From: Pseudomonas fluvialis
Lineage (GTDB): Bacteria; Pseudomonadota; Gammaproteobacteria; Pseudomonadales; Pseudomonadaceae
Assembly: GCF_002234375.1 (NCBI RefSeq)
Contig: NZ_NMQV01000004.1
Coordinates: 1-64,000 of the forward strand
Length of the DNA: 64,000 bases
Direction of reading: 5' to 3'
Shown here: in pieces, positions 54,654 through 63,495 of the stretch
Layout of the letters: each line of letters begins with the position of its first letter
Position numbering within the stretch: position 1 is the stretch's first letter
Made by a program: the position numbers and the translations under genes
Notes under the pieces: generated by a model
What the model saw: the letters and a program-made list of their open reading frames with translations, nothing else
What the model was told of the DNA's origin: nothing
The model's database searches: none

Positions 54654-54754
54654 ACCTGTGCCTCCTGCCCTTGGGCAGGTTTCGCCCGGCGGCGGCTAGG
54701 CCTACACTGGCAGAAAAAAGACAGCCTGCGGGCTGCCATGACCATGGAGCCAGG

Positions 54755-55915
54755 ATGAAACCGGCTTATCTGTCCCAGGTGCACGCCGAATCGCCCTATC
54801 TGCTGCAATTGCAGGCGGGCTTCCGCCGTCTGGCCTTTGCCGGCGCCCTGGAGGCGGAGTTTGCCGAGCATCACAACCGGCAGTTCCTGCGCCGCATGCG
54901 CGGGGCTTTCCTGGTGGCCATGCTGCTCATGTTGCTGTTCGTCGTGCCGGATGTGCTGACCCTGCCGGATGGTGTGCGCCAGGCAGTGCTGGGGGTGCGC
55001 CTGGGGCTGTTGGTGCCGTTGATCAGCCTGGCCTGGCTGCTTAGCTACCTGCCCGCGGTGCGTCGCCATCTGCAATGGCTGGGGGGCGGCATTACCCTGG
55101 TCGGTGGGTTGGGCGTCAATGCGATCATCTGGCTGGCCCAGCGTGAGGGCGTGGCTCTGCCTTACGAGGGCATCATCCTCGCGACCTTCTTCTTCTACTT
55201 TCTCACCGGGCTACGTTTTCGCACCGCCGTGCTGTGTGGCTGGCTAGTGTTTGCCGGTTATGTCTGGGTGGCTCTGGACGTCGGCCTGGCGGGCGAGCCG
55301 TTGCTGTACAACCTGTTCTTCCTAGCCACCGCCAACCTGATCGGCTCGGTAGGTTGCTATTTCATGGAATATGCCGCGCGGGAAAACTTCTTGGGCCAGC
55401 AGCTGTTGCGCGAAGTGGCCGAGCGCGACTTCCTCACCGGGCTGCTTAATCGGCGAGCCTTCAACGAGCAGGCACAGCGCGTCTGGCGACTCGCCCAGCG
55501 CGAAGGCAAGGCACTGGCAGTGGCCTTGCTGGATGTCGACTATTTCAAGCGCTACAACGACTATTACGGGCATGCGGCGGGAGATGAGGCGCTGCGTACC
55601 GTGGCGCAGGTGCTGCAAGGCTATGCACGTCGGCCGCTGGACAGGCTGGCACGTTTTGGCGGCGAAGAGTTTGTCGGCCTGTGGTACGACCTCAGCCAGG
55701 CCGAGGCCGAGCAACGGTTGCAGGCGCTGCGCCAGGCCATCCAGGCGCTGGCCCTGGCGCATGTCGGGTCGGAGGTGGCCGAGGTGCTGACCCTGAGTAT
55801 CGGCCTGGCCTATGTCGCCCGGCCTGCCGAGCTGAGCCTGGCACAAGCACTGCAGCAGGCAGACAGTGCGCTGTACCGGGCCAAGGAGCAGGGGCGTAAT
55901 GCCCTGTGCCAGTGA
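54755..55915 (+). CDS. Membrane-bound diguanylate cyclase with intact GGEEF and I-site
   Basis: A 386-residue protein with about six membrane spans (residues 50-210) and a C-terminal GGDEF domain. The catalytic motif is RFGGEEF, and an RPLD inhibitory site lies five residues before it, so product inhibition is expected. It should make cyclic di-GMP, which in pseudomonads shifts cells from motility to biofilm. The N-terminal membrane part is of the type seen in MASE-like sensors. GGAG precedes ATG 54755. It reads towards folA and lies about 40 bases before that start. Confidence 0.9.
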   Translation: MKPAYLSQVHAESPYLLQLQAGFRRLAFAGALEAEFAEHHNRQFLRRMRGAFLVAMLLMLLFVVPDVLTLPDGVRQAVLGVRLGLLVPLISLAWLLSYLPAVRRHLQWLGGGITLVGGLGVNAIIWLAQREGVALPYEGIILATFFFYFLTGLRFRTAVLCGWLVFAGYVWVALDVGLAGEPLLYNLFFLATANLIGSVGCYFMEYAARENFLGQQLLREVAERDFLTGLLNRRAFNEQAQRVWRLAQREGKALAVALLDVDYFKRYNDYYGHAAGDEALRTVAQVLQGYARRPLDRLARFGGEEFVGLWYDLSQAEAEQRLQALRQAIQALALAHVGSEVAEVLTLSIGLAYVARPAELSLAQALQQADSALYRAKEQGRNALCQ

Positions 55916-55957
55916 GCTGGCTTGCTGTGCCGCCATGGCCGCCGCTATGCTGCCGCC

Positions 55958-56470
55958 ATGAAAACGACGCTCCCCCTGTGCATGATTGCCGCTCTGGCGG
56001 AAAACCGCGTGATTGGCCGCGATAACCAGTTGCCCTGGCACCTGCCGGCCGACCTACGCCATTTCAAGGCCCTGACCCTGGGCAAACCGGTGATCATGGG
56101 GCGCAAGACCTGGGATTCGCTGGGCCGTCCCTTGCCGGGGCGTCTCAATCTGGTGGTCAGTCGCCAGGCCGGCCTGCAGTTACCGGGTGCCGAGGTGTTC
56201 GCCGACCTGACGGCAGCGCTGGCTCGGGCCGAGCAGTGGGCACGCGAACAGGCTGTCGACGAGCTGATGCTGATCGGCGGCGCGCAGCTTTACCAGCAGG
56301 CATTGCCGCTGGCGCAACGCCTGTACCTGACCCGCGTGGCCTTGCAGCCCGAGGGCGATGCCTTCTTCCCTGATGTGCCGCTCGCCGACTGGCAGTGCCT
56401 GGTGGAGGAAGTGCACGAAGCCGAAGACGCGCTACCGGCTTATCGCTACCAGACCTGGCAGCGCCGCTGA
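55958..56470 (+). CDS. folA: Dihydrofolate reductase
   Basis: A 170-residue enzyme that reduces dihydrofolate with NADPH, the trimethoprim target. The active-site region is AALAENRVIGRDNQLPWHLPADLRHFK (carboxylate in the LPADL element), followed by the NADPH strands KPVIMGRKTWDSLGRPLPGR and LMLIGGAQLY. ATG 55958 gives the standard start. From memory folA and ilvD are near neighbours in P. aeruginosa; here the AAA+ array operon lies between them. Confidence 0.95.
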   Translation: MKTTLPLCMIAALAENRVIGRDNQLPWHLPADLRHFKALTLGKPVIMGRKTWDSLGRPLPGRLNLVVSRQAGLQLPGAEVFADLTAALARAEQWAREQAVDELMLIGGAQLYQQALPLAQRLYLTRVALQPEGDAFFPDVPLADWQCLVEEVHEAEDALPAYRYQTWQRR

Positions 56471-56541
56471 GCCGCGCCTGGCGTTATGGCATGATGCTTT
56501 ACCGACTACGGCCATGAGGGACGTAGCGTTGCAAGACCTGT

Positions 56542-56570
56542 CATGGAAGACCTGCTGCGGGACTTCCATG
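56542..56570 (+). promoter_or_regulatory. Inverted repeat in the leader of the AAA+ array operon
   Basis: CATGGAAG (56542-56549) and CTTCCATG (56563-56570) form a perfect eight-base inverted repeat with a 13-base spacer, 50 bases before the first start codon. It could be an RNA hairpin or an operator. No good -10/-35 pair was found in the 149 bases after folA, so the operon may also be read through from folA. Confidence 0.4.
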
Positions 56571-56619
56571 CATTCCACTGAAAACTGCCATTGCCTGGCG
56601 ATGGCTATGCGAGTGTGCG

Positions 56620-59600
56620 ATGCGGCCGATGTCTCGATGCGTTCCTGCCCTGTTTTTGCTGGCCTTGCTGGCTGGCCCGGTTCTGCCGGCGAGTGCTGGT
56701 GAGCGAACCTTGTTGCGCCATGCTGGTGTCGAGGTACGTGTTGCCGAGGATGATTGGTGTGCGGCGCAGGTGACGCTGCGTATTCATGGGCGGCGCAGCA
56801 CCTTCACCGATCAGGCGCTGCTCGACAAACTGTATGGCGGCATCCGTAGTGTCCTCGGCATGGAGTGTGCCGAGGCCCGGCGTCTGCAGTTGTTGGGCCT
56901 GGTGGGGGGCAGGGAAGTCTATGCTGCGCAGGCGGCAGCCAGTGACGGCTGGCAGCTGAAGCCCCTGGACGATAGCGGTGCCAAGCCTGGCATGGCGCGC
57001 CTGTTTGGCTGGGTGGCGTTGGGGGCTGCATCATTGGCGCTGTTGGCTGCCCTGTGGTGGTGGCGGCGCACCCGGCCAGCCCGACTGGCCGCAGGGCCGC
57101 TGGCGCAGCGCGAGCCCCCCGTCGCGTCGCCCACTCCGTCACCCCGTCCTGTTGCGCTGCCTGCGGCGGCGGCCAGTCAGGTCTCGCCGGCTGCCGCGCC
57201 AGCGTCAGCCCCGGCCAGCGGGCGCCAGGCCGTGCTGCAGGAGCAGCGTGAAAAATATCAGCACAGCCTCAATCAGGTCAGTGACCAGTTGACCGAGTTG
57301 CAGATACAGCACAGCCAGCAGCAAGGCTTGCCGGCGCAGCTCAATCAGGCTTTGCAGCGTCTGGCCGAGCAGACCTTGCAGTGCCTGCGCAAGCTCTTCG
57401 CCAGTCGCCAGACCAGTTGGTCGCGAGCTTTCCTGGGGGGGTTGTACCTCGCCCCGGTATGGTCCGGTTTGCGCCGTAGCCCGCCGGTGATTTGGCTCGG
57501 CTTGCTGGCTGCATGCCTGTGGTGGGGCTGGCGCGAACGCTATGGCCTGGTGTTGGCGCCGCGCCTGGAAAGTTATGCGCCGCTGCTGCTGTTTTATCTG
57601 TTGGCCATGCCTCTCTCGGTGTTGCTGGCGCGGCGTGGACAGTCGGCGTTTTTCAAGCACGGCTTGCGCCAACAGGCGAATGCCTTGCAGGACTGGCAAC
57701 TGTGCTGGGTGTATGCCGGGCAGCGGCCAGGCAAATACCAGGCTTTGCGGATCCGCCAGCAGGCTGGCAAGGTTGCCCTCGATGAGCTGGCCGTAGCGGA
57801 TGGATTGCTGGCGGGCGGCGCTGAGCACGGCACGCTGCTGCTGCGTATTGGCGAGATGCTGTGGCTGCGTCAGCAAACCGCTGGCAACTGGAGCCTGATT
57901 CAGCGTCAGGCTGACAATACCTGGCTTGAGCAGTTCTCGCCGCTGTTGCTGGAAGCGCTCAAGGAGGTGTTGCCGACAGTGCGCGAACTGGGTGGCCAGT
58001 GGCAGGCCTTTGCCGAGCGGCAATGGCGTATGCGCCAGTTGCAGGCCGAGATTCCTCGTCAGGAAGGCCTGTTGCAGCGGGTCGAGCGAATTGCCGCATT
58101 GTGGCAACCGGTAGCCATTGCGGACGCGGCCTTTGCGGCGCTGATCCGGCGTATCGACCTGTTCAACCTGGGGGATAACGCGACCCCGGCAGGCATCCTG
58201 TTGCAGGGCGAGGCGGGCAATGGCAAGGAGTTCATTGCCCGACGCATTGCCCAGTCGGTATTTGCCGAGTTCCATATGGTCGAGGCGGGGAGCCTGGCGT
58301 CGGCCAAGGACGTGCGTAACTTCTGGAACGCGCGTGTCGAAGCCAACCAGAGCTGTGTGATCTACCTGGCCTATGCCGAGCAACTGTTCGGCCAGGACGA
58401 ACGCCAGGCCATGCTCGTCCAGGCCTGGCTGGATGAGTGGGAACGTCATCCGGCGGCGCGTAGCCGGATCTGGGTGGTGATGGGGGTGACGCGCAAGGAG
58501 CTGCTGCACAAGCGCTTGTTGGCAGCCTTTGGTAGCGCCGTGGTGGAGATTGTCGCACCGGATGCGGCAGGTCGCCGCCTGTTGCTGGAACAAGCCTGCC
58601 GCGACAACCAGCTGCAGGGCAACCTGCCGCCGGAAGTCGTCGACCTGAGCGCCGGGGCCTCGGTGCGCGAGCTGCTGAATATCGTCAAGGAGGCCCGCTT
58701 GCATGCCTTGCCCGGCCAGCCGACGCTGACGCATTGGCGTGCGGCTATCCAGCAGGTGCGGGGCAGCGATGCACAGCTGCGTAACGATCGCAGCACCTGG
58801 CAACGCCTGGTTCTACCTGCTGAGGTCAAGGCCCGTTTGCGTACCGCCGAGAAGATCGTTCGGGAAGCTGAACGCTACAAGGCCAATCAGTTCGAGGTGC
58901 CGAATATCCTGCTGTATGGCCCGCCCGGCACCGGCAAGACGGAAATCGCCCGCACTCTGGCCAACGAGAGTGGGGTGCGTTTCATAGTCGCCAGCACCAA
59001 CGATCTCAAGGGCCGCTATGTCGGTGAAACCGGGCCCAAGGTGGCCGAGCTGTTCGCCCGGGCGCGTAGCCAGGCGCCGTGCATTCTGTTTATTGATGAG
59101 ATCGATGCGATTACTGCGCGGCGTGATGGCGAAGGTGGTGACTCCTTCGTCAAGGATGCGGTCAATGCCATGCTCACCGAAATGGACGGGGTACATCAGC
59201 AGCGTGGCGATGTGGTGGTATTGGCGGCAACCAACCATATGGAGAACATCGACAGCGCGATCCTCAGCCGTTTTACCGAGAAGATCGAGATTCCCCTGCC
59301 GGACGAAGCCGGGCGCGCGCAGATTCTTGCCGGTTTGCTGGCGGATTGCCGGCTGGCCGAGGATCTGCATGCCGAGTCGCTGGCGCGCGAGCTGAGCCCG
59401 CTGCTCAAGGGCAAGAGTGGTCGCGACCTGTTGCAGTTGGTGCGCAAGGCAAAAAACCGCAGCCTGCGTGAGGCGGATGATCCCGAGCAGGCACGCCTGT
59501 CCGCTGAACACCTGAGGGGCGAGCTGGCGCCGCAAGCTGCGCCAGTGCTCGACGAGGCGCAGTTGCAGCAGAGCTGGGCGCAGATCGTGCTCAAGGAAAC

Positions 59601-61080
59601 CACGCGCGATACCCTGATGACGAAGATTCGCCTGTTCAGTAACGGTGACAAGGCGGCCCCGCGAGGTTTGTTGCTGTACGGCCCGCCGGGCACCGGTAAG
59701 ACCGAGATAGCCCGGCGCATTGCCGATTCCGCAGGGTGTCGCTTCCTCGCCCTGTCGGCGCCGGATCTCAAGGGCAGTCATCTGGGGCAGACCGCACAGA
59801 AAGTCCGCGAGCTTTGGCAGCGCGCACGTGCCGCCGGACGTTGTGTGATCTTTATCGATGAGTGCGAGGGTGTATTTGCGCGGCGTGGCTCGCTCAACTC
59901 CGACAGTTTTTCCGATGAGCTGGTGCAGAGCTTTCTGGCCGAGTGGGACGGTTTGCAGGCTGCCGGGCAGATCTGGGTGGTGGGTGCCACCAACCGTGTT
60001 GACCTGCTCGACGAAGCCATCCTCTCGCGCTTTGGCCAAGGTGTGGAAATCGGTCTGCCCGATGCTGCGCAAAGGCAGCAGATCCTGGCCCTGGAACTGA
60101 GCAAGCTGGGCCGTGAAGCGAGCGTGCCAGCCTTTGCCGGCGAAGCGACCCAGGGCTGCGCTGGACGTGACCTAGCCAATCTGGTGCGCGAGCTGTGCAG
60201 CCTGGCGGCGGAACGCCAGCAGGCGCCGGACGAGGCCTTGTGGCGTGAGGTGTTGCAGCGCCAGGGCAAGGCGCAGAGTGACAAGGTTGACAGCCAGGCT
60301 GGCTGGGACAGCCTGATTCTCGCCGAAGACACGCTGGAGCGCCTGCAAACGCTGTGCGGCAGCCTGCGCAATGCCGAGCTGTTGCGTAGCCAGGGCGTAC
60401 CCTTGCCCCGCGCGGCGCTCTTGTATGGCCCGCCCGGTACCGGCAAAACCCAGGTGGCGCGTACCCTGGCCAATGAAAGTGGTGTGGCGTTTATCAGCCG
60501 CAGCGTAGCCGACCTCAAGGCCGGATATGTCGGGCAGTCGGCCATCAAGGTGCGCGAAGCGTTCGAGCAGGCGCGCAGCAAGGCGCCGTGCATCCTGTTT
60601 ATCGATGAAATCGAGGCCCTGGTGCCGCCACGCGGCAGCCAGGCTGCCGATGCCTTTACCGATGACATCGTCAATCAGTTGTTGCAAGAGCTGGATGGCG
60701 TCAAGCAGCAGGAGGCGGTGGTCTTCGTGCTGGCTGCCACCAATCTGCCGGAACGCATCGATGCTGCCATATTGTCGCGCTTCATGGACAAGATCGAACT
60801 GCCCCTGCCCACTCCGGCGCAGCGCAGCCAGTTGCTGCGTCTGTTCCTGGGGCGTTTGCGTACGGCATTCGATGCTGACGAGGTGGCGGCACGGCTGGCC
60901 AGCCAGACAGACGGCCTGGGGGGGCGTGATTTGCGCAGCCTGGTCGAGCGTGCGGTGCAGCGTGCGGCTGGCCGCGCCTTGCGCCAGGGCACGGCGGAGC
61001 GCGTGGAGTTGCAGCTGGATGATCTGTTGGCCGAGTTGCCGGCGCTCAGCCCGGCCTCTGACCCCCTTATGGAGCGATAG
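56620..61080 (+). CDS. Membrane-anchored protein with four tandem AAA+ modules
   Basis: A 1486-residue protein. A signal peptide (residues 1-26) is followed by a periplasmic domain (27-125, cysteines 47 and 83 could pair), a span at 128-150, a Pro/Ala linker, a coiled coil (about 205-245) and two more spans (about 288-306 and 318-337). The rest is cytoplasmic. AAA+ modules have P-loops near residues 530, 767, 1021 and 1270, about 240-250 residues apart. Modules 2-4 are complete (GPPGTGKT; ILFIDEIDAI, VIFIDECEGV, ILFIDEIEAL; LSRF arginine region) and carry pore loops RYVGE, SHLGQ and GYVGQ as in p97/FtsH-type unfoldases. Module 1 is degenerate (GEAGNGKE, no Walker B acidic pair). A covalent AAA array that couples a periplasmic sensor to cytoplasmic remodelling is the likely plan; substrate and function are unknown. 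ATG 56629 is an alternative start. Confidence 0.88.
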   Translation: MRPMSRCVPALFLLALLAGPVLPASAGERTLLRHAGVEVRVAEDDWCAAQVTLRIHGRRSTFTDQALLDKLYGGIRSVLGMECAEARRLQLLGLVGGREVYAAQAAASDGWQLKPLDDSGAKPGMARLFGWVALGAASLALLAALWWWRRTRPARLAAGPLAQREPPVASPTPSPRPVALPAAAASQVSPAAAPASAPASGRQAVLQEQREKYQHSLNQVSDQLTELQIQHSQQQGLPAQLNQALQRLAEQTLQCLRKLFASRQTSWSRAFLGGLYLAPVWSGLRRSPPVIWLGLLAACLWWGWRERYGLVLAPRLESYAPLLLFYLLAMPLSVLLARRGQSAFFKHGLRQQANALQDWQLCWVYAGQRPGKYQALRIRQQAGKVALDELAVADGLLAGGAEHGTLLLRIGEMLWLRQQTAGNWSLIQRQADNTWLEQFSPLLLEALKEVLPTVRELGGQWQAFAERQWRMRQLQAEIPRQEGLLQRVERIAALWQPVAIADAAFAALIRRIDLFNLGDNATPAGILLQGEAGNGKEFIARRIAQSVFAEFHMVEAGSLASAKDVRNFWNARVEANQSCVIYLAYAEQLFGQDERQAMLVQAWLDEWERHPAARSRIWVVMGVTRKELLHKRLLAAFGSAVVEIVAPDAAGRRLLLEQACRDNQLQGNLPPEVVDLSAGASVRELLNIVKEARLHALPGQPTLTHWRAAIQQVRGSDAQLRNDRSTWQRLVLPAEVKARLRTAEKIVREAERYKANQFEVPNILLYGPPGTGKTEIARTLANESGVRFIVASTNDLKGRYVGETGPKVAELFARARSQAPCILFIDEIDAITARRDGEGGDSFVKDAVNAMLTEMDGVHQQRGDVVVLAATNHMENIDSAILSRFTEKIEIPLPDEAGRAQILAGLLADCRLAEDLHAESLARELSPLLKGKSGRDLLQLVRKAKNRSLREADDPEQARLSAEHLRGELAPQAAPVLDEAQLQQSWAQIVLKETTRDTLMTKIRLFSNGDKAAPRGLLLYGPPGTGKTEIARRIADSAGCRFLALSAPDLKGSHLGQTAQKVRELWQRARAAGRCVIFIDECEGVFARRGSLNSDSFSDELVQSFLAEWDGLQAAGQIWVVGATNRVDLLDEAILSRFGQGVEIGLPDAAQRQQILALELSKLGREASVPAFAGEATQGCAGRDLANLVRELCSLAAERQQAPDEALWREVLQRQGKAQSDKVDSQAGWDSLILAEDTLERLQTLCGSLRNAELLRSQGVPLPRAALLYGPPGTGKTQVARTLANESGVAFISRSVADLKAGYVGQSAIKVREAFEQARSKAPCILFIDEIEALVPPRGSQAADAFTDDIVNQLLQELDGVKQQEAVVFVLAATNLPERIDAAILSRFMDKIELPLPTPAQRSQLLRLFLGRLRTAFDADEVAARLASQTDGLGGRDLRSLVERAVQRAAGRALRQGTAERVELQLDDLLAELPALSPASDPLMER

Positions 61081-61085
61081 TCGCC

Positions 61086-61583
61086 ATGCATCAGCATCAG
61101 CATCAGGATTTGCCTGAGTCCGAGGCTCCGTCGAGCGAACAGTTGTCCGCGCCGCTGCTGTCTGGCGAGTCGCTACAGGCCGTGCCGCTGGACAGCACCG
61201 AGCAGACCTTGCCTGCCGTGCTGGCGCGCCAGGAGACGGCCAAGGCCGGGCGTGCGGGCGAACGCAACCTGCGCGTCGAGTCGGTGCCTGTGTGGGTCAA
61301 TGGCAATCGCCCCAGCTATGAGATTGTCAGTAGCCTGGAAGAACACCCCCTGGAGGTGCTGGTCGAGCAGCTTAGCTATCGCAAGCACTATCAAGGGCGT
61401 GGGCGGGTGCAGACGCAGGTCATTCCGGTTGTGCCAATAGGCACGCCCGGTCGCCTGCTGGCGCGTGATCTGCAGACGGGCGAAGAGCTGGAGGTGACCT
61501 GGCGCTGGGTGCCCCTGCATGAGCCGTCATGGTTGGGACGCTGGCTGGGGCGACTGGCGGGCTGGCTGTTCGGGCGGCGTTAA
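61086..61583 (+). CDS. Uncharacterised 165-residue partner of the AAA+ array protein
   Basis: I do not recognise this protein. It begins with a His/Gln repeat (HQHQHQ, from three CATCAG units), has a disordered acidic N-terminal 60 residues, a compact middle (VPVWVNGNRPSYEIVSS to LEVTWRWVPL) and an amphipathic, Trp/Leu/Arg-rich end (WLGRWLGRLAGWLFGRR) that could bind membrane. No signal peptide is seen. It begins five bases after the stop of the AAA+ gene, so the two form an operon and probably a complex. It could be a substrate adaptor or regulator; that is inferred from position only. Confidence 0.75.
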   Translation: MHQHQHQDLPESEAPSSEQLSAPLLSGESLQAVPLDSTEQTLPAVLARQETAKAGRAGERNLRVESVPVWVNGNRPSYEIVSSLEEHPLEVLVEQLSYRKHYQGRGRVQTQVIPVVPIGTPGRLLARDLQTGEELEVTWRWVPLHEPSWLGRWLGRLAGWLFGRR

Positions 61584-61612
61584 CCGAGTGTTTTGCGCAG
61601 GCCTGGCAAAGT

Positions 61613-61636
61613 AAAAGCCCGGCACTAGGCCGGGCT
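61613..61636 (-). terminator. Intrinsic terminator of ilvD (possibly bidirectional)
   Basis: An eight-base stem AGCCCGGC/GCCGGGCT with a five-base loop. On the minus strand it is followed by TTTTACTTT (from 61616 downwards), a good terminator for ilvD. On the plus strand the tail is only CTTC, so it would end the AAA+ operon less well. Confidence 0.8.
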
Positions 61637-61656
61637 CTTCAGGCTCAGGGGCGGGC

Positions 61657-63495
61657 TCAGCCGTCCAGCAGTGCCTTGTCACGTACGGCGCCTTTGTCGG
61701 CACTGGTGGCCAGCAGCGCGTAGGCTTTCAGGGCGGTGGAGACCTTGCGTGCACGCGGCTGCGCCGGCTTCCAGCCCTTCTTGTCCTGCTCGGCACGGCG
61801 CGCGGCCAGTTCGTCATCCGACACCAGCAGGTTGATGCTGCGGTTGGGGATGTCGATCAGCACCTTGTCGCCGTCCTGGACCAGGCCGATGGCACCGCCG
61901 GCGGCGGCTTCCGGCGAGGCGTGGCCGATCGACAGGCCCGAGGTGCCGCCGGAGAAACGGCCGTCGGTGAGCAGGGCGCAGTCTTTGCCGAGGCCCTTGG
62001 ACTTCAGATACGAGGTCGGGTAGAGCATTTCCTGCATGCCCGGGCCGCCTTTCGGGCCTTCGTAGCGGATGATGACGATGTCGCCCGGCTTCACTTCGTC
62101 GGCGAGGATGCCCTTCACCGCGCTGTCCTGGCTCTCGAAGATCTTCGCCCGGCCTTCGAAGACGTGGATGGATTCATCCACCCCGGCGGTTTTCACCACG
62201 CAGCCGTCCAGGGCGATGTTGCCGTACAGCACGGCCAGGCCGCCTTCCTGGGAGTAGGCGTGCTCGACCGAGCGGATGCAGCCGTGCTCGCGATCGTCGT
62301 CCAGGGTCTCCCAGCGGGTGCTCTGGCTGAACGCCACCTGGGTCGGGATACCGGCCGGGCCAGCCTTGAAGAAGGTGTGCACGGCTTCGTCGCTGGTCTG
62401 GGTGATGTCCCACTGGGCGATGGCTTCGGCCATGCTCGGGCTGTGCACGGTCGGCACGTCGGTGTGCAGCAGGCCGCCGCGGGCCAGTTCACCGAGGATG
62501 GAGAAGATGCCGCCAGCGCGATGTACGTCTTCCATGTGGTACTTCTGGATGTTCGGCGCCACCTTGCACAGCTGCGGTACTTTGCGCGACAGCCGGTCGA
62601 TGTCGCGCAGGTCGAAGGCCAGCTCGGCCTCCTGGGCGGCGGCCAGCAGGTGCAGGATGGTGTTGGTCGAGCCACCCATGGCGATGTCCAGGGTCATGGC
62701 GTTCTCGAACGCCTTGAAGCTGGCGATGTTGCGCGGCAGGACGTTGTCGTTGCCTTCGTTGTAGTACTGGCGGCAGAGGTCGACGATCAGCCGGCCGGCG
62801 CGCAGGAACAGCTGCTCGCGGTCGGCGTGGGTGGCCAGGGTCGAGCCGTTGCCCGGCAGCGACAGGCCCAGGGCCTCGGTCAGGCAGTTCATCGAGTTGG
62901 CGGTGAACATGCCGGAGCAGCTGCCGCAGGTCGGGCAGGCGCTGCGCTCGTACTCGGCGACCTTCTCGTCGGAGCAGGAGTCATCGGCGGCCACCACCAT
63001 GGCGTCGACCAGGTCCAGGCCATGATTGGCCAGCTTGGTCTTGCCGGCTTCCATCGGCCCGCCGGAAACGAACACCACCGGGATGTTCAGGCGCAGGGCG
63101 GCCATCAGCATGCCGGGGGTGATCTTGTCGCAGTTGCTGATGCAGACGATGGCGTCGGCGCAGTGGGCGTTGACCATGTATTCCACGGAGTCGGCGATGA
63201 TCTCGCGGCTCGGCAGCGAATAGAGCATGCCGTCGTGGCCCATGGCGATACCGTCGTCGACGGCGATGGTGTTGAATTCCTTGGCCACGCCGCCGGCTTT
63301 CTCGATCTCGCGGGCGACCAGCTGGCCGAGGTCCTTCAGGTGCACGTGGCCGGGGACGAACTGGGTGAAGGAGTTGGCGATGGCGATGATCGGCTTCTTG
63401 AAGTCTTCGTCCTTCATCCCGGTGGCGCGCCACAGGGCGCGGGCGCCGGCCATGTTGCGACCGAAGGTGGAGGTTTTCGAGCGGTAGTCAGGCAT
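61657..63495 (-). CDS. ilvD: Dihydroxy-acid dehydratase
   Basis: A 612-residue iron-sulfur enzyme of branched-chain amino acid biosynthesis that turns dihydroxy acids into the 2-keto acids for valine, isoleucine and leucine. Cluster cysteines are visible in [11 protein letters not shown] and in [15 protein letters not shown]; the Mg-binding lysine/asp region is [11 protein letters not shown]. The C-terminal half has [17 protein letters not shown]. Length is standard. It stands alone with its own terminator and faces the AAA+ operon. Confidence 0.97.

Follow-up and report, generated by a model that had tools for sequence, protein, structure and literature searches.

Membrane-tethered AAA+ proteins and tandem AAA+ machines

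The tandem AAA machines p97, NSF, and ClpB have two tiers, and the proteins of the CDC48/p97 type are soluble and carry an N domain. The dynein heavy chain and midasin have six AAA+ modules in one chain, which form one ring. We analyzed a stretch of 64,000 nucleotides from Pseudomonas fluvialis (NCBI RefSeq assembly GCF_002234375.1, contig NZ_NMQV01000004.1, positions 1 to 64,000, hereafter the window), in which an intact gene on the forward strand (56620..61080) encodes a 1486-amino-acid (aa) membrane-tethered ATPase with four AAA+ modules in the order A-B-A-B. The interpretation that this chain is an A-B pair doubled by tandem duplication is well supported by sequence comparison, because profiles and a tree of 46 modules both give the A-B-A-B order. 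The relatives of the protein form a family of membrane-tethered tandem-AAA ATPases of about 725-825 aa, module A followed by module B, that appears to be previously undescribed and is unnamed. The titles and abstract openings covered by our literature search, which most subscription papers lay outside, describe neither the family nor a bacterial four-module chain.

Four AAA modules in one chain

Four stretches of the protein match Pfam AAA (PF00004; E 2.8e-123 for the chain), and Walker A motifs are found at residues 530 (GEAGNGKE, degenerate), 767, 1021, and 1270. The spacings of 237, 254, and 249 residues agree with the first-pass annotation of this DNA, which had described a 1486-residue chain with four modules about 250 residues apart. 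The three modules to which it gave full Walker A and Walker B motifs and the pore loops YVG, HLG, and YVG are modules 2-4: module 2 (B-type, residues 727-967, 58798..59520) has Walker B at 823 and YVG at 800, module 3 (A-type, residues 986-1215, 59575..60264) has Walker B at 1077 and HLG at 1054, and module 4 (B-type, residues 1229-1476, 60304..61047) has Walker B at 1326 and YVG at 1303, and all three have the SRF motif. Judged by these motifs, modules 2-4 look active. Module 1 (A-type, residues 495-718, 58102..58773, like the others on the forward strand) is a probable pseudo-ATPase, in that its fold is retained while Walker B, the sensor-1 Asn, and the arginine-finger motif SRF are absent and the pore loop is deleted.

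As separate matches in the genome, modules 1-4 score 35.4, 141.7, 115.5, and 135.2 bits. When the modules were searched one by one, modules 2, 3, and 4 matched general AAA families in NCBIfam (best E 2.7e-46, 4.5e-41, and 1.7e-47), and module 1 had no match at 1e-8 in NCBIfam or PADLOC. Residues 1-127 had no match in Pfam or NCBIfam. The HExxH protease motif is absent from all 28 proteins listed, the 1486-aa chain included.

A degenerate first module, in a form that we see in one genome only, is also what a decaying or non-functional fusion could look like. We regard this as improbable, given that the 1486-codon frame is intact, that the catalytic motifs checked are kept in modules 2-4, and that the base composition of the gene (GC 0.645; GC content at third codon positions, GC3, 0.757) resembles that of the neighboring folA (GC3 0.798) and GGDEF (GC3 0.778) genes.

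The chain as a doubled A-B pair

A profile of the whole family, built from 16 relatives (14 loci and two plasmid proteins), aligns nearly full length to residues 199-967 of the chain with 427.7 bits, and then aligns again, with its AAA part only, to residues 981-1471 with 691.2 bits. When A-type and B-type profiles of the 16 family proteins were used separately, the scores alternated along the chain: module 1 has 108 for A and 27 for B, module 2 has 268 for B and 196 for A, module 3 has 298 for A and 186 for B, and module 4 has 320 for B and 199 for A. Ten control modules from CDC48-like proteins and FtsH score 137-154 on the A profile and 172-189 on the B profile, which is below modules 2-4 on the profile that fits them. 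The A score of module 1 lies below the controls, and we call this module A-type because of the difference between its two scores, not because of the absolute score.

The tree of 46 modules places 1 and 3 on the A side, which is split from all others with 100/99, and 2 and 4 in the B group (88/55); the CDC48 and FtsH modules stand apart (100/99). In this tree module 1 is a very long branch that meets another long branch. FtsH controls for it were sought at ten loci, four of which yielded a protein fitting the search pattern. A second tree, of 29 A-B pairs with two rows of unusual composition, groups both pairs of the 1486-aa protein together (90/83, with a long-branch warning), and the duplication likely occurred in this lineage. 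With two A-B units per chain against one in the two-module family, the protein is a doubled relative and not a typical member; none of the relatives seen has more than two modules.

Protein identity between the copies is 49% for modules 2 and 4 and 34% for modules 1 and 3. We considered an assembly artefact or a recent duplication in the assembly, and ruled it out because the module copies differ too much.

Predicted structure and the arrangement of the modules

The model of residues 27-720 (14 rows) has a mean predicted local distance difference test score (pLDDT) of 63, with values above 80 in most blocks of module 1, and the module 1 model matches PAN with Z 20.5 and a root-mean-square deviation (rmsd) of 2.9 over 225 residues. 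The model of residues 488-1486 (13 rows) has a mean pLDDT of 77 and a predicted template modelling score (pTM) of 0.45. In it, modules 3-4 are placed like D1-D2 of p97, matching protomer 9yrc_A from a substrate-processing complex with Z 27.7 and rmsd 3.4 over 485 residues; Rix7, Cdc48, NVL, and AFG2 are also among the fold matches.

Two arrangements of the doubled chain have to be weighed. The four modules may continue as one stack, or three chains, each with two A and two B modules, may join into a single double ring of the p97 kind, its A positions taken in turn by dead and live modules, an idea similar to Pex1/Pex6. The second arrangement would account for the presence of exactly two A and two B modules with one A degenerate, and fusing two protomers would lock the alternation. 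However, the chain would then have to fold back across two rings between B2 and A3, which would call for a longer linker, and in the model that junction (from a helix end at about 969 to W986) is little longer than A1-B2 (717 to 727) and A3-B4 (1218 to 1229). Because the modeled junctions are similarly short, we take them as favoring a continued stack over a fold-back, with stretches of pLDDT below 50 at all three junctions; the fused pseudo-heterodimer we consider unlikely, and of the alternatives to our preferred reading it is the least so.

Two-module relatives

When plasmids were searched with the chain by tblastn, Geminicoccaceae SCSIO 64248 turned up with two plasmid-borne copies (E 2e-117 and 1e-112; 41.7% and 40.6% identity); the best listed CDC48-type plasmid rows are far weaker, at about E 1e-61. 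The two copies encode proteins of 746 and 744 aa with two AAA modules and adjoin VirB-type genes. A profile made from them and modules 3-4 gave 214 pattern matches in genome contigs, which came down to 15 loci, found in Arenimonas, Pseudoxanthomonas, Thermomonas, six Xanthomonas, a metagenome-assembled genome (MAG) of Lysobacteraceae, a Rhodanobacteraceae bacterium, two Acinetobacter, and two Granulicella MAGs. The frame is intact in 14 of the 15, with two modules each, and encodes 725-919 aa as called, where 919 includes an upstream extension; without start extensions the relatives have 725-823 aa. We left L106, a fragment with a 544-aa frame, out of all alignments, and L100 and L103 as well out of alignment A2, which uses 12 of the 15 loci. 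Alignments A3 and A4 have 13 and 12 family rows, L105 and P0001 were left out of the first N-terminal profile, and L104 was used in a form cut back to an internal start.

In a draw of 217 genomes centered on one relative, 23 match, a proportion that is biased since that relative was a known carrier and 7 of the 23 genomes were already known. Their open frames encode 745-983 aa; 14 are full-length matches, and the other 9 begin only at model position 181-303. Each of these nine has a different N-terminal part and two Walker A motifs, and they join the Geminicoccaceae copies in the A-B pair tree (100/99). The second subfamily, with its different N-terminal part, is found in Lysobacteraceae (L134-L142, e.g. 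L134:7116-9713), and in 5 of the 7 loci listed its gene is preceded, at a distance of up to about 0.9 kb, by one and the same 455-aa gene that by appearance resembles biotin carboxylase.

The family as we see it thus occurs in Lysobacteraceae, Rhodanobacteraceae, Acinetobacter, Granulicella MAGs, and on the two Geminicoccaceae plasmids. It spans Gamma- and Alphaproteobacteria as well as the Granulicella MAGs and is a candidate bacterial counterpart of the membrane protein extractors. Two family proteins match general AAA models only; for the listed NCBIfam families their scores are too low to pass the curated cut-offs.

Both plasmid copies sit amid genes annotated as VirB8, VirB9, and type II secretion/type IV pilus/type IV secretion (T2SS/T4P/T4SS)-family ATPase, with VirB3 in one of them and a TrbL/VirB6 match just under the Pfam cut-off (24.7 vs 25.9). 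This setting would suit a chaperone or energizer of a secretion or conjugation apparatus, and the window protein could be one too. By eye, however, there is no secretion gene beside the window gene or beside the chromosomal relatives listed, of whose neighbors one, the integrase of L105, was library-searched, and we think such a role improbable. The plasmid genes themselves (L077:9227-11467 and L078:9233-11467) start inside the end of a helix-turn-helix gene and are followed by a 112-aa gene and the T2SS/T4P/T4SS-family ATPase gene; the gene preceding the p2 plasmid copy (L078) has a RepC N-terminal domain by Pfam. In the Granulicella MAG locus L105:8319-11491, the two-module gene begins two bases after a tyrosine-integrase gene (Pfam Phage_integrase).

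Even draws of 369 genomes from the class, searched with modules 2-4 at E<=1e-40, and of 398 from the phylum, searched with family profile A1 at E<=1e-85, gave the source genome only. These draws scored the best 2-3 candidates per genome, and the 217-genome draw four, so relatives ranked below FtsH could be missed. No two-module relative was found in the 36 genus genomes among the 57 searched, where the best match apart from the gene itself is one module with E 1.1e-37, or in the few genus genomes of the phylum draw. The whole protein matched 138 phage records, in no case over 80% of its length. Identity is 27.8-37.8% in the 30 listed, and those with an annotation are mostly called FtsH or AAA proteins. 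In viral contigs, none of 40 candidates held up in the search with family profile A1.

N-terminal and membrane part

The first-pass annotation had placed a signal peptide, a periplasmic domain, and three spans before the modules. A probable signal peptide covers residues 1-26 (PASA-G, 56620..56697, with an alternative ATG for the gene at 56629), which we judged, like its cleavage site, by eye and without a predictor; hydropathy gives a signal-like hydrophobic segment at 7-25. It is followed by a probable periplasmic domain, residues 27-124, with cysteines 47 and 83 (56698..56991; model block pLDDT 26-54). This domain was folded without relatives, and the fold-search rows do not bear on it. The membrane part (57001..57633) comprises span 1 at about 128-146, a Pro/Ala linker, predicted helices 200-233 and 237-275, span 2 at about 288-308, and span 3 at about 319-338. 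Two of the three spans hold by hydropathy (128-146 and 319-337 pass the threshold), whereas the Trp-rich 288-308 lies below it and appears as a helix in the predicted model only. Three further hydrophobic windows lie inside the AAA modules and were not counted as spans. Residues 339-494 (57634..58101) are predicted, from the secondary structure of a low-confidence model, to be a cytoplasmic beta-containing part with a long helix that leads into module 1. All these features are on the forward strand. The N-terminal part probably faces the periplasm, and the broader proposal of a membrane-tethered, pore-loop AAA+ remodeling machine of the p97/FtsH class with such an N-terminal part is supported.

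Residues 150-487 share their layout with the N-terminal part of the two-module relatives. For residues 1-195, a tblastn search around the relatives' genes (28 loci, 547,019 bases) found nothing equivalent (best E 1.8). Residues 1-332 have no plasmid match at E<=1 by tblastn, and with residues 1-517 none of 11 pattern matches in genome contigs held up. The N-terminal 517 aa, not the AAA part, were also searched in 398 genus genomes at E<=0.001, and 7 matched: the source genome and six others with short matches (L041-L046, E 5e-5 to 8e-4, 0.4 expected by E-value). The short matches fall within residues 80-268, the region of span 1, the Pro/Ala linker, and the coiled helices, and probably reflect biased composition.

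The locus and the 165-aa gene

As first described, a 165-aa gene follows after a gap of five bases: the ATPase gene ends with TAG at 61078-61080, and the second gene (61086..61583, forward strand, GGAG 11 bases before its ATG) is probably co-transcribed. Its protein has a Trp-rich basic C-terminal stretch, no family match in PADLOC, Pfam, or NCBIfam, and no sequence match in the PDB; the gene has no plasmid match at E<=1 by tblastn. It occurs in 1 of the 57 genomes (its own). Five of the 398 genus genomes match at E<=0.01, namely itself and four short matches with E 0.003-0.009, which is about the number expected by chance, and none of the 17 family-carrying genomes or plasmid records matches at that threshold (one match has E 0.036, with the limit at 10). 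A conserved adaptor role of the small protein is not supported, with the qualification that we found no second four-module genome for a fair comparison, and we rejected a conserved two-gene operon. Outside this genome we found neither the signal/periplasmic extension nor the doubling nor the small gene; co-occurrence thus lends no support to an adaptor role, which is a guess. At 3.29 Mb, the source genome is smaller than all 35 of the other listed genomes of the genus (3.7-7.1 Mb).

The operon is flanked by a folA-like gene (about 55937-56470) and, on the opposite strand, an ilvD-like gene (61657-63495, GC3 0.91), both typed by their conservation in relatives. A membrane GGDEF gene, typed by Pfam, lies just upstream of folA (54671-55915) and has a match in 1 of 10 fetched stretches (G014). 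Within 56300-61900 we found no sigma-70-like promoter and one terminator-like site, below the shuffle mean of 3.8. The folA regions of 10 relatives were fetched: ilvD is inside the stretch in 8 (two partly), the intervening genes vary, and no tandem-AAA gene appears in the frame lists, the intervening genes not having been library-searched. The folA-ilvD interval (56470-61657 of the window) looks like a variable chromosomal spot that holds the operon.

Proposed mechanism

We think it fairly probable that the protein is an inner-membrane-anchored, ATP-driven, non-proteolytic AAA+ threading unfoldase or segregase. This reading is drawn from features seen in the sequence, namely the signal-like start, the spans, the A-B-A-B order, the degenerate module 1, the three intact modules, and the lack of HExxH. 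A two-module, p97-like A-B ATPase would have had its A-B pair tandemly duplicated, probably in this lineage. The modules would form stacked hexameric rings beneath the inner membrane, with the dead A ring nearest the membrane as a platform or gate, and the other rings would hydrolyze ATP and pull a membrane or envelope polypeptide through the pore, resulting in its extraction or unfolding. The periplasmic domain may select substrates or report the state of the envelope, and the 165-aa protein may serve as an accessory subunit of the four-module form only.

Several points weigh against this reading. To our knowledge, a four-tier stack made of a single chain has no precedent. Nearest to it, by their titles, are the p97 double hexamers built from separate hexamers (7vcu, 7wub). 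The genomic context suggests no pathway, and the neighborhoods of the relatives vary (nine loci and seven loci). The pTM of the two models is only 0.49 and 0.45. Residues 150-487 alone match subfamily 1 weakly (13.1 bits, E 5e-4, hhalign probability 49%; best of 190 scored shuffles 3.3 bits) and subfamily 2 less so (7.3 bits, E 0.03, hhalign 1%), and the N-terminal parts of the two subfamilies barely match each other either (hhalign probability 9%). Lastly, the grouping of the two pairs has only 90/83 on long branches, and the doubling could be older than the lineage.

Taken as a whole, the chain may be a p97-like double-ring AAA+ motor that has been covalently doubled and anchored in the membrane, with a periplasmic head and one dead module. 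The assembly would be either four hexameric rings deep, three of them powered, or a pseudo-hexamer of alternating dead and live subunits; we put this whole picture at a little under an even chance. We know of neither a four-storey stack nor a forced-alternation pseudo-hexamer for a single chain. A doubled chain would allow tests of a gain in pulling force, processivity, or control from additional tiers, and of the gating of a ring by dead modules whose positions are fixed; tier number and fixed dead modules are otherwise studied with engineered linked subunits.

Comparison with known systems

The chain scores below the curated cut-offs of the FtsH, CDC48, and IetA models. Its best PADLOC match is IetA (E 1.2e-112), which raises the possibility of an anti-phage defense protein related to the IetAS system. 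With NCBIfam NF042959, however, it has 358.8 bits against a cut-off of 510, and this is less than its FtsH (450) or CDC48 (430) score. IetS is a subtilisin-like protease, and no IetS-like partner protease was recognized beside the window gene; the adjoining 165-aa gene has no family match, and the neighbors are folA and ilvD. We consider a defense role of this type very unlikely.

The first-pass annotation had likened the chain to the covalent arrays of dynein and midasin, with which it shares several AAA+ modules per chain. Here there are four, in A-B-A-B order and nearest to p97-class AAA, and the profiles and tree point instead to a doubled A-B pair of a two-module family with one module apparently dead.

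With the two-module family (e.g. WGF90971.1 from Geminicoccaceae SCSIO 64248, and L092-L105) the protein shares the A-B order, 48% identity over 488 columns of modules 3-4, a GRDL-type motif where CDC48 and FtsH have GAD, hydrophobic N-terminal spans, and the absence of HExxH. It differs in having four modules instead of two, and in the extension 1-195 and the 165-aa gene, which were not found near the relatives' genes. With CDC48/p97/VCP, Rix7, NVL, and AFG2 it shares the lack of a protease motif, the aromatic pore loops (here in modules 2 and 4), and, in the predicted model of the single chain, the stacking of D1 and D2, but CDC48/p97 has two modules, and the TIGR01243 score is 430 against a cut-off of 802.65. 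A membrane-anchored AAA ring, predicted here, is the likeness to FtsH and the i-AAA proteases; FtsH has one AAA module per chain, and we ruled out an FtsH paralogue from the missing HExxH and the TIGR01241 score of 450 against a cut-off of 600.

Actinobacterial Cpa is a bacterial Cdc48-like AAA+ protein that forms hexameric rings and, by the title of the paper, interacts with the proteasome; the word "transmembrane" is not found in the main text of that paper (PMC6017811), in contrast with the membrane-tethered chain described here. Chains of the plant Ycf2-FtsHi complex are among the fold matches, and the FtsHi members presumably have no protease activity and are involved in chloroplast protein import (PMC8197885). 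By analogy, the protein of the window would work like a membrane-anchored p97 or an FtsHi-type motor.

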